The notes beneath the pieces were generated by a model. It was given only the letters and a program-made list of their open reading frames with translations, made no database searches and had not been told where the DNA came from. From Desulfobacterales bacterium (GTDB lineage Bacteria > Desulfobacterota > Desulfobulbia > Desulfobulbales > BM004), in assembly GCA_021647905.1 (NCBI GenBank), contig JAKITW010000001.1, positions 30,052-94,051 of the forward strand: a DNA stretch of 64,000 nt, in the 5' to 3' direction. Below are positions 38,061 through 50,874 of the stretch, piece after piece. Made by a program: the position numbers and the translations under genes. How positions within the stretch are numbered: position 1 is the first letter of the stretch; each line of letters begins with the position of its first letter.

Positions 38061-39760
<1,700 letters not shown>

Positions 39761-47346: not shown

Positions 47347-48807
47347 CTAATCAGCCTGTTTTATGCCGTCCGGCCCTGAACCGGCTGGACAGCTGATCAA
47401 CTGCCTTTTTTCCCCGTAATTGAAATCAGCGTCATGTTCCGGGGTGTGGCAGCGGCGGCAGATCATTTCCAGTGGTTGCCGGGAAAGGGACACCGCGGCC
47501 GGGTTGTTGCCGTGGCCGCGGTCCGGTCCGTGGCAGGTCTCGCAGCCCACGGACCGGAGCGACAGGGGCAGGGTGAGCAGGGACTGCCCCTGGTCTGGCG
47601 GCGCCGGGGTGACGTGACAGGTCAGGCAGGTCAGGTTGAACTGCTGCTGTTTGGCAACCAGGGCCTGGTAGGCGGCGCCATGGCGGGTGGTCTGCCAGAA
47701 GGCGGCCTGGTCGGGATGACATTCGGCGCAGGCCTGCCAGCCGGTATATCGATCGAGCCGGCTGCCGGGTTTTCTTCCGTTCCGGCCTGTCCGGGCCGCG
47801 GACTTTGCCTCCCGGGCCGTTCGTTGACCGGCCCGGGAAATATCTTCTTTGATCCGTTTCACCAGGGCCAGTATTTCCGGCTGGTCCGGCAGACTGGTGG
47901 TCATGGAGATGTAGCTGTTGCTGAAAGTGGACGGCGTTGCGTCTTCTTCTTGCCTGTTTCCCGGTTGCCAGGATTTCTGCCGGTTGATCCGCAGCCAGCC
48001 CAGGTATTTCCCCTGTTTGCCGGTCTGGCAGATCAGGGTGTTTTTCACCACCAGCGGGGGCAGGTTGGCCGGGGAGGGGGAGGACTGGATGATCAACCGG
48101 ATGCCGTCCACTGAATCGGCAATGGCCCGGTTCTCGGCCAGGGAATAGTTGGACAACAGAATCACCAGATCGCACTTGTCCTTAAGACCGGCGACCGTGT
48201 CCGGCAGCACCCGGCGCCAGGGGAGGATAACCACATCATCGGGCAGGACCGGCCGCGGCTGGGCATTGTCATTGGTGATGCCGATGACGCCGATGGTGAG
48301 ATCATCCCGGGTGATGACGGTGTACGGTGTAAATAAAGGGCTGGAGTCCCCGCGGCGGACCAGGTTGGCGGAGAGCCAGGGAAACGCGGCCCGCCGGTTC
48401 AGGTCGAGAAGAAAGTCCAGCCCTCCGGCCAGATCGCTGTTGCCCACTGCCACCGCATCAAAGCGCATCAGATCATAGGCCCGCGCGATGCCGGCCGCGG
48501 CGATTTTTGCCTGGTCGAGCCTGGCGCCGGTGAGATGCCCGGGCTTGAACAGCAGGTTGCCGCTGTCCAGGGTCAGGGCCGGGGGGCCGGGGTTTTCCCG
48601 TAATCGGTTCAGTTGAAACGCCTTTTTGGACAGACCGCCCAATTGAGCGCTTTTTCAGCCGCAGGGTTCCAGCTCGCCCAGAACGTCGTTGCCGTACAGG
48701 ATGGTGAGATCGGTTCCCGCGGTTGCGGATACACCGGCCGGCGGGAGAAGCAGGAGTCCCGTGAGCAGGAGGAATCCGGCAATAATGGATGCAATGACAC
48801 TTCTCAT
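47347..48807 (-). CDS. Tetraheme metallophosphatase-like cytochrome, predicted selenoprotein (in-frame UGA)
   Basis: Predicted 486-aa exported protein read through UGA at 48655-48657 (residue 51). ATG 48807 has GAGGA six bases upstream, 9 bp after rarA. Signal peptide MRSVIASIIAGFLLLTGLLL. Then a UshA/5'-nucleotidase-like domain (LTILYGNDVLGELEPCG-U-KSAQLGGL). From memory, relatives have PCGC, with Cys at the UGA. Metal-site motifs look degenerate (DSGN, VGNSD, SNY in place of GD, GNHD, SH), suggesting a non-catalytic fold. The C terminus has four CxxCH haem sites: 360-364, 394-398, 422-426, 450-454. A SECIS-like hairpin follows the UGA. Without recoding, a caller would report a truncated 431-aa protein from a TTG at 48642 lacking signal peptide. 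Confidence 0.87.
48618..48657 (-). promoter_or_regulatory. Bacterial SECIS-like hairpin directing selenocysteine at UGA 48655-48657
   Basis: Reading the transcript from UGA: 12 nt, then a stem TTGGGC, apical loop GGTCT, stem GTCCAA (six pairs, one G-T). A lower stem GCGC/GCGT forms across an internal loop. The UGA-to-loop distance is 18 nt. As I recall it, the E. coli fdhF SECIS has the same GGUCU loop at the same 18-nt spacing, and that loop is what SelB contacts. Confidence 0.85.
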
Positions 48808-48816
48808 GATCTTTCC

Positions 48817-50178
48817 TCAGGTCTGTTTTGGGGAGTCAGGGTTACGTTGGCGCAGAATCCGGCGCCACTTGATCAGCCGCTCCTTGATCACCGCCTCGTA
48901 GCCCCGGTTGGTGGGGTGATAAAAGGTCTGTCCGTTCAGTTCCCCGGGCAGGTGTTCCTGCAGGACCAGGCCGTCGGCATGGTCGTGGGCATATTGATAT
49001 CCCTTGCCGTAGTCCAGTTTCTTCATCAAGCCGGTGGGGGCGTTGCGCAGATGGAGCGGCACCGGCAGGCTGCCGCTTTGGTTGATCTCCTGGCGCACCT
49101 TTTTATAGGCCATGTAGAGGGCATTGCTTTTAGGGGCGGTTGCCAGGTAGACCACGCACTGGACCAGGGCCAGTTCCCCTTCCGGCGAACCCAGGGTGTG
49201 ATAGGCGTCCCGGCAGTTGATCGCCAGGTTGAGTGCCCGGGGATCGGCATTGCCGATATCCTCCGAGGCAAAACGGATCATCCGCCGGGCGATGTAGAGC
49301 GGTTCCTCGCCCGCGGCCAGCATCCGCGCCAGCCAGTAGAGGGCTCCGTCCGGGTCGCTGTCCCGCAGGCTCTTGTGCAGGGCCGAGATCAGGTTGTAAT
49401 GCTCCTCGCCGTCCATGTCGTAGCGCAGGGTGGTGCGCTGACTGGCCTCCAGGACCGTGTCCAGGGTGATGATCGGTTTTTCTCCATCGGTCCGGGGCCG
49501 GGCCAGGCTGGCGGCGATCTCCAGGTTGTTCAGGGCCCGGCGGGCATCGCCGTCGGCCATGGCCGCCAGGTGGTCCAGGGCCTGGTCGTTGGCAATGATA
49601 TCGAGTTTGCCCAGCCCGTTTTCCCGGTCGATCAGCGCCCGGGAGAGGATTTTTTTTAAGTTTTCCGGGGCAAGGGGGTTCAGTACCAGGACCCGGCAGC
49701 GGGAGAGCAGCGGGGCGATTACCTGGAAGGAGGGGTTCTCGGTGGTGGCGCCGATCAGGGTCAGGAGCCCGCTTTCCACGTGGGGCAGAAAGCCGTCCTG
49801 CTGCGCCTTGTTGAACCGGTGGATTTCGTCGACAAAAAGGATGGTGTTTTTTTTATTTTTTTCCAGCTGCTCTTGGGCCTGGGCAACGATCGCCCGCACC
49901 TCCTTGACCCCGGACATCACGGCCGAGAAAAAGACAAAGTCCGCCCCGGTGCTTCTGGCCAGGATCCGGGCCAGGGTGGTCTTGCCCGAGCCCGGCGGCC
50001 CCCAGAGGAGCAGCGACGGGATCTGCTGCTGGTCAATGAGCCGGCTCAGCATCCGGTCCCGGCCCAGCAGCTCCTCCTGACCCACGAAATCGGTCAACGA
50101 GGTGGGCCGCATCCGCTCGGCCAGGGGGATATTGGTTTTTCGGGAGGGGCCGGTCAAGACTGCTGCCTCGCCGGGCAA
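48817..50178 (-). CDS. rarA: Replication-associated recombination AAA ATPase RarA (MgsA)
   Basis: 453 aa as given. The first codon is TTG; a second TTG at 50157 with GGCGAGG upstream is an alternative. Clamp-loader-related ATPase acting at stalled replication forks. PLAERMRPTSLTDFVGQEELLG, Walker A GPPGSGKTTLARILA, Walker B LFVDEIHRFNKAQQDGFLP, sensor GATTENPSFQV, and the tetramerisation domain with IRFASEDIGNADPRALNLA and YLATAPKSNALYMAYKKV. Nine bp upstream of the selenoprotein gene, so the two are probably co-transcribed. Confidence 0.96.
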   Translation of the reverse strand: MPGEAAVLTGPSRKTNIPLAERMRPTSLTDFVGQEELLGRDRMLSRLIDQQQIPSLLLWGPPGSGKTTLARILARSTGADFVFFSAVMSGVKEVRAIVAQAQEQLEKNKKNTILFVDEIHRFNKAQQDGFLPHVESGLLTLIGATTENPSFQVIAPLLSRCRVLVLNPLAPENLKKILSRALIDRENGLGKLDIIANDQALDHLAAMADGDARRALNNLEIAASLARPRTDGEKPIITLDTVLEASQRTTLRYDMDGEEHYNLISALHKSLRDSDPDGALYWLARMLAAGEEPLYIARRMIRFASEDIGNADPRALNLAINCRDAYHTLGSPEGELALVQCVVYLATAPKSNALYMAYKKVRQEINQSGSLPVPLHLRNAPTGLMKKLDYGKGYQYAHDHADGLVLQEHLPGELNGQTFYHPTNRGYEAVIKERLIKWRRILRQRNPDSPKQT

Positions 50179-50205: not shown

Positions 50206-50580
50206 TCACTCCTTGGGGATGAAAATCACGTTGGGTAACTGCCTGAGATCCGCGTCAGAGGTGATGATCTCGCAGGCAAAGGATCGCGCCACGGCAACAA
50301 TAATCGCATCCGCCATGGCAAGACCGTGCCGCAGGGCCAGGTCCGCGGCCGCCAGGGCAAGGGTTTCGTCAAAAGGTATCAGTTGCGAGTTTTTCATATG
50401 CCCGGCTGCAAACAGGGCCTTTTCCTCTCCGACTTCCCGTTTCAGAATCTTGTATACCTCGTAGAGGATTATGGCGGGAACCAGAATTTCCTCCGGATCT
50501 TCCAGATACTGTTGGTAGTGGTCGGCAAGGCTCCCATCGGAAAACCACTCCAGCCAGCCGCAGGAATCAACGATAACCAT
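50206..50580 (-). CDS. vapC: PIN-domain ribonuclease toxin, VapC family
   Basis: 124 aa. PIN-domain acidic residues are visible: Asp5 in MVIVDSCGWLEW, the Glu of LYEVYKIL, Asp in HGLAMADAIIVAVA and Asp in IITSDADLRQLP. VapC toxins cleave tRNA or rRNA and are neutralised by the VapB encoded just upstream. ATG overlaps the vapB stop by one base. Inserted between hrpA and rarA, all on one strand. Confidence 0.92.
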   Translation of the reverse strand: MVIVDSCGWLEWFSDGSLADHYQQYLEDPEEILVPAIILYEVYKILKREVGEEKALFAAGHMKNSQLIPFDETLALAAADLALRHGLAMADAIIVAVARSFACEIITSDADLRQLPNVIFIPKE

Positions 50581-50786
50581 TAAAAACGGTCCTTTTTCTC
50601 GCGGTAGTCAGCCAGCCCGGCGCCGGTCGCTATTCCCCGCAGCTCTTGGAGTGAGCGTTGGGGGATGAGGATAAGCATGCCGTCTTTTTCTATCACCGTC
50701 AGCTTCTGTTGGGGCCGCAACCGGAGACGTTCCCTGACCTGTTTTGGAATAACCACCTGATACTTGCTTGAAATCGTGGTCTGCAT
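50580..50786 (-). CDS. vapB: AbrB-type antitoxin, VapB family
   Basis: 68 aa from ATG 50786, with GGGAGA upstream; the frame extends further but without a better start. A swapped-hairpin AbrB/MazE DNA-binding fold: MQTTISSKYQVVIPKQVRERLRLRPQQKL (Ser-Lys-Tyr-Gln-x-x-x-Pro-Lys). The C-terminal tail (RGIATGAGLADYREKKDRF) would cover the toxin. It should autoregulate the pair. Confidence 0.92.
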   Translation of the reverse strand: MQTTISSKYQVVIPKQVRERLRLRPQQKLTVIEKDGMLILIPQRSLQELRGIATGAGLADYREKKDRF

Positions 50787-50874
50787 ACCATTCTCCCTTT
50801 GCTTGATCGATACGATAAGTGTATGAAAAATGTCGCAGGGTGTCAAGCTAATGCCCAGGTGGTTTCAGGGATGA

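Follow-up and report, generated by a model that had tools for sequence, protein, structure and literature searches.

Does a UGA codon close to the start of a putative haem-protein gene end translation or specify selenocysteine (Sec), and what would the full-length product do? The question arises on the minus strand of a 64,000-nucleotide (nt) stretch of DNA from a Desulfobacterales bacterium (assembly GCA_021647905.1, contig JAKITW010000001.1, positions 30,052 to 94,051), hereafter the window. An ATG at 48807, preceded by the purine-rich sequence GAGGAAAG, opens a frame interrupted at residue 51 by TGA (EPCG*KSAQLGGLSK, the asterisk marking TGA). The predicted protein comprises, in order, a signal-peptide-like start, TILYGNDVLGELEPCG-U-KSAQLGGLSKK, an UshA-like domain that reaches roughly residue 300, a linker and four CxxCH motifs (Table 1). 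Re-reading of the minus-strand frame upheld what an earlier inspection of the letters alone (the sequence-only reading) had reported, namely an in-frame UGA, 435 open codons from there to the TAG stop, and four haem sites.

The whole protein matches the NCBIfam profile NF041198, "UshA-like (seleno)protein" (518.8 bits; cut-off 275), PCG-TGA at residues 48-51 corresponding to the PCGU/PCGC motif of that family. The full-length match, the PCGU motif and the haem-bearing C-terminus leave nothing essential to tell it from the UshA-like PCGU (seleno)proteins. Judged by these features, this is a real selenoprotein gene and a member of an already known family, not of a new one. On this point the sequence-only reading, which was not aware of the family being described as a selenoprotein, was mistaken. 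In the excerpted text of three papers, UshA-like proteins with a CxU motif appear as a selenoprotein family: under COG0737 in PMC2398784 (2008; 76 selenoproteins in ocean samples) and PMC9312934 (2022), and with the accession NF041198 in PMC13188914 (2026). The COG0737 entries of these excerpts are equated with NF041198 by name and motif alone. A second UshA-like selenoprotein family, NF049981, shows weak kinship (38.8 bits; cut-off 140); its model is shorter (262 positions) and, as excerpted from PMC13188914, its motif is CxxU rather than CxU.

A class-wide search matched NF041198 at any score in 251 of 257 genomes and over the cut-off in 190. Among the matches listed, most full-length genes contain exactly one TGA, 12 contain none and one (in genome G169) contains a TGA and a TAG. 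The best 80 of 231 relatives, together with the tree described below, place the PCG[C/U] family also in Planctomycetota, Verrucomicrobiota and Myxococcota. Gene callers tend to truncate the protein at the UGA, so that annotation hides it: the motif and the signal-like start are absent from 108 of the best 120 of 294 database hits. In one relative among these 120 (P0100), Ser replaces Cys/Sec (PCGS).

Decoding of the in-frame UGA

Examination of 171 loci (L018-L047, L052-L191 and the window) yielded a set of 135 rows, made up of 80 TGA forms (window included) and 55 Cys forms. Loci lacking the pattern or an in-frame haem site (L189 among them) were left out, as were genes identical across 600 nt; near-copies were retained. 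The selection pattern requires CG[C/U]...GG, and the 135/135 agreement within this set therefore carries no information on conservation. Another pattern-selected set kept 88 of 91 loci, the pattern missing L095, L096 and L098. We thus relied on a profile derived from the 135 rows with the motif columns masked, which read 170 of the 171 loci (no match covered L186, and duplicate fetches of one gene are counted separately). All 170 carry CG[C/U]: PCGU in 103, PCGC in 64, ACGU in two and GCGU in one. By the same reading, Pro48 is kept in 167 and the Gly57-Gly58 pair in 168. The UGA does occupy the place of the second Cys of the relatives' PCGC, as the sequence-only reading proposed.

The window hairpin has six pairs (one G-U) and begins 12 nt past the UGA, its GGUCU loop beginning at 18 nt. 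Folding of 40 nt starting at the UGA gives this hairpin plus a lower stem (-12.9 kcal/mol; z -2.69), and 3 of 200 shuffled sequences did equally well. The Sec insertion sequence (SECIS) of Escherichia coli fdhF, inspected in a 41-nt stretch matching E. coli fdhF at 100%, has the same loop 18 nt after its UGA and a different stem sequence, in agreement with the loop and distance given in the sequence-only reading. At least five of the six pairs and a GGNCT loop at the fixed distance are found in 78 of 80 Sec forms compared with 5 of 55 Cys forms; the two Sec-form exceptions (L106 and L130) have all six pairs around a 6-nt loop. Loops among the 80 TGA forms are GGTCT (68), GGGCT (8) and GGACT (4). 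L189, a PCGU form from Marinimicrobia, has a hairpin-like stretch after its UGA. An Rfam scan of the window at the gathering score returned 5_ureB_sRNA as its sole match, Rfam coverage of this hairpin type not being established.

Third bases under the hairpin are nearly invariant in Sec forms. Gly57 is GGC in 80/80 and Leu59 CTG in 79/80, and Gly58 is never GGC; for comparison, the seven other conserved Gly positions tested 3' of the hairpin use all four codons, GGC is used in 45/80 at Gly83 and 30/80 at Gly129, and the Gly57 and Gly58 codons vary in the Cys forms. By this codon comparison, the hairpin codons are frozen where the protein sequence does not demand it. The outer stem pair of the 80 Sec forms is T-A in 40, C-G in 20, T-G in 2, C-A in 17 and A-G in 1, an association with a Fisher p of 7.5e-7 on the 79 T/C rows, uncorrected for kinship.

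These data bear on the idea that translation really ends at the UGA, or that this codon is a sequencing error, and that the product is a downstream, TTG-started open reading frame (ORF) of 431 residues. That ORF is the one called mechanically and has a database counterpart (P0002, 431 aa), and the many hits lacking the region before the UGA agree with it. However, its TTG falls within the hairpin, and a c-type cytochrome started there would have no signal peptide; 80 Sec-form genes share TGA at this codon, along with the hairpin and the frozen third bases. We consider the idea most improbable, and on the latter grounds a stop codon, a pseudogene and a sequencing error were all rejected.

The source genome (98.37% complete) contains the machinery for Sec decoding that the sequence-only reading had proposed to look for. 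Profile searches identified selA (620.3 bits), selB (354.5) and selD (349.9), the last with one internal in-frame TGA, read as CGUAAK, which makes it a Sec-type selD. Two tRNA-Sec genes scored 74.8 and 56 bits and are both tRNA-SeC (tca) by ARAGORN (L001 and L002, at C12:41830 and C61:757). The weaker of the two ends about 95 nt ahead of the selD match on contig C61. Taken with the hairpin, the sequence evidence makes Sec decoding of the UGA very likely.

Distribution of Sec and Cys within the family

In a tree from which column 51 was left out, the distribution of Sec and Cys requires five changes; the method was a quick one, long branches were flagged and the outgroup is not confined to one side of a branch. 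A branch with support 98 unites 79 Sec rows with 12 Cys rows, the latter falling into three groups: a genus (g20) and paralogues in two families (f13 and f15). Read most simply, the tree has Sec as ancestral in this Desulfobulbales-like branch, with three replacements by Cys.

The g20 genus appears to be of the cable-bacteria type. The copies of its five genomes among the matches listed are Cys forms, with a selA match in none of the five (two being only 69 and 78% complete) and selB over the cut-off in none of the four tested. selA is present in all seven genomes of f13 and f15 that have a Cys copy, and five of them (G238, G241, G242, G253 and G256) hold a Sec copy too.

Fold, haem domain and proposed activity

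The protein has the metallophosphoesterase fold of UshA-type 5'-nucleotidases, with a score of 44.5 bits against the NCBIfam UshA cut-off of 600. The SoxB thiosulfohydrolase profile TIGR04486 likewise gives a score far under its cut-off (42.7 against 550 bits). Residues D41, H43, D84, N123 and H124, placed from a MAFFT alignment, lie at what we take to be the di-metal ligand and catalytic positions of these nucleotidases. No row among the 135 keeps all five; the maximum is three, 128 rows keep two or fewer, and the window protein retains D41 and N123 alone. Compared with UshA and CD73, which share the fold, the family has lost most metal and catalytic residues, carries PCG[C/U] after strand 1 and has a haem domain in place of the nucleotidase C-domain that forms their C-terminal part. 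The description "metallophosphatase-like" in the sequence-only reading is thus right for the fold and wrong for the active site. Likewise the UshA-like name, which suggests a nucleotidase, is probably misleading since most metal ligands are gone. A working metallophosphatase or nucleotidase with a redox-regulated selenol would suit the fold, but the low UshA score and the scrambling of the ligand columns across the 135 relatives render it very unlikely; an active phosphatase was rejected for the loss of most metal ligands.

The C-terminal part matches the cytochrome c554 domain PF13435 (53.9 bits; gathering score 20.8) and the c554 structure 1bvb (E 1.8e-5 across residues 354-433), differing from cytochrome c554 in being fused to the UshA-like domain. 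Beyond the CxxCH motifs only H376 and H432 exceed 93% conservation, and they may serve as distal haem ligands. Foldseek and VIA match lists for the whole protein were filled by the UshA domain. In the excerpts of PMC9312934, PMC2398784 and PMC13188914, neither the haem domain nor the lost metal site of the UshA-like family is described.

We think it probable that the UGA is read as Sec by means of SelB and the hairpin and that the resulting periplasmic Cys-Gly-Sec protein, with its haem-motif domain, acts as a redox enzyme. With the aid of the hairpin just downstream, SelB would translate the UGA as Sec, and the product, likely periplasmic, would carry in one chain the Cys-Gly-Sec motif and the domain with its four haem-binding motifs; the insertion of Sec, the export of the protein and its loading with haem are all predicted from sequence. 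Cys49-Gly-Sec51 would sit in the emptied active-site region of the metallophosphatase fold, Cys49 and Sec51 forming a redox-active thiol/selenol (selenenylsulfide) pair. Electrons would pass between this pair and the haems, with reduction, or less likely oxidation, of a disulfide or of a small substrate containing sulfur or selenium. Cys forms would carry out the same reaction less well. A haem-wired selenol/thiol redox enzyme is, on these features, more likely than a phosphatase.

Several observations weigh against this reading, beginning with the hairpin. A 28-nt piece prefers a different fold by minimum energy, the hairpin appearing there as the centroid only. The hairpin is kept in 4 of the 12 Desulfobulbales-like Cys forms, which perhaps reflects recent Sec-to-Cys switches, and the Cys control is a distant one, 43 of its 55 members belonging to other groups. 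As to the machinery, two well-assembled Sec-form genomes, G113 (2 contigs, 100% complete; L092) and G126 (1 contig, 97%; L093), have selB and tRNA-Sec and gave no selA match by two models; the Sec-form drafts G141 and G170 gave none with PF03841. G115 lacks selB, and G107 lacks tRNA-Sec, over the cut-off. Two of four g20 genomes score 47.1 bits for tRNA-Sec, barely above the gathering score of 47. Archaeal-type Sec synthesis was rejected as the explanation of the selA gap in G113 and G126, SepSecS exceeding its cut-off in none of 14 genomes, these two included (one weak sub-cut-off match, in G097). The missing genes in Sec-form genomes may reflect assembly gaps, masking or real loss. Concerning the activity, residues 43-54, the very loop that bears PCGU, are poorly modelled by AlphaFold2 (AF2), as is part of the haem domain, so that the distance between Sec and haem cannot be read from the model. 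The Marinimicrobia Sec form L189 has no in-frame haem motif, meaning that haem wiring is not universal. Finally, PMC2398784, as excerpted, keeps UshA-like proteins separate from families with conserved Cys-based redox motifs.

Gene neighbourhood and significance

Neighbours were counted around 48 Sec-form loci (about 8 to 12 kilobases each, window included) and ten Cys-form loci. The immediate upstream neighbour, on the same strand, belongs to the rarA-like cluster at 40/48 Sec-form versus 0/10 Cys-form loci. A cluster typified by Mn-dependent pyrophosphatase occurs nearby in 36/48 versus 0/10, on the opposite strand among the rows listed. We read this arrangement as inherited synteny rather than function. 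The next gene downstream in the window is urtA, for urea transport (579.5 bits). Inspection of clustered neighbours and their sequences at 49 loci, mostly from other phyla, gave no clear functional hint.

Four of the ten Cys loci, all in family f15 (L054, L057, L059 and L060), sit immediately behind a yedF-type gene (202.8 bits against 110 for the one representative tested), ahead of which a selD-type gene lies in L060 (377.1 bits against 125) and, by cluster membership, in L059. This hints at a selenium link in the f15 lineage alone. A yedF-type gene adjoins none of the 48 Sec-form loci, for which reason a selenium-operon link was rejected as a general rule. The same count speaks against the possibility that CGU/CGC serves as a ligand or carrier site (for a metal, metalloid, persulfide or selenopersulfide) whose bound ligand the haems oxidise or reduce, in a SoxB- or sulfur-cycle-like manner. 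For the Planctomycetota, Verrucomicrobiota and Myxococcota members, moreover, no sulfur link was noticed, their neighbours being seen as unannotated sequences. We regard such a carrier role as unlikely, though a good deal less so than a phosphatase.

Elsewhere in the window, the 5_ureB_sRNA match (39329-39615, plus strand, 120.1 bits) may merely reflect conserved ureB coding sequence, and 50206-50846 (minus strand) encodes an AbrB-type regulator and a protein with a weak VapC match (23.7 bits; cut-off 80), possibly a toxin-antitoxin pair.

Table 1. Features at and beside the UshA-like (seleno)protein gene (window coordinates)
Feature	Position	Strand	Basis or remark
UshA-like PCGU (seleno)protein gene	47347..48807	-	NF041198 match; 486 residues if UGA is Sec; stop TAG 47349-47347
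Predicted N-terminal signal peptide, about residues 1-27	48727..48807	-	End placed by eye; AF2 helix 2-18
In-frame TGA, residue 51, predicted Sec of PCGU motif	48655..48657	-	Cys codon or TGA here in 170/170 relatives (motif columns masked)
SECIS-like hairpin TTGGGC-GGTCT-GTCCAA	48626..48642	-	Loop 48636-48632
Extended hairpin, lower 5-pair stem GCGCU/GGCGU	48618..48650	-	Folding; lower stem read in window sequence alone
CxxCH haem site 1, residues 360-364	47716..47730	-	Sequence motif
CxxCH haem site 2, residues 394-398	47614..47628	-	Sequence motif
CxxCH haem site 3, residues 422-426	47530..47544	-	Sequence motif
CxxCH haem site 4, residues 450-454	47446..47460	-	Sequence motif
rarA-like AAA ATPase gene	48817..50178	-	Ends 9 nt before selenoprotein-gene ATG

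In sum, the observation of a selenoprotein gene made in the sequence-only reading is confirmed and its interpretation partly supported. The gene is ordinary in kind and well supported, and is useful mainly since annotation truncates the protein and its name likely misleads. What is added to the known family is the conservation of CG[C/U] in all 170 relatives when the columns are masked, and the loss of most phosphatase metal ligands. More tentatively, and with somewhat less than even confidence, the PCG[C/U] family as a whole, with members in at least six phyla, may consist of haem-wired thiol/selenol oxidoreductases in which a phosphatase fold emptied of its metals has acquired Cys-Gly-Cys/Sec as a new active site, possibly for periplasmic selenium or sulfur handling. 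The three inferred Sec-to-Cys switches, one of them in genomes with no selA match, would offer natural pairs for testing the benefit of selenium in a haem protein.
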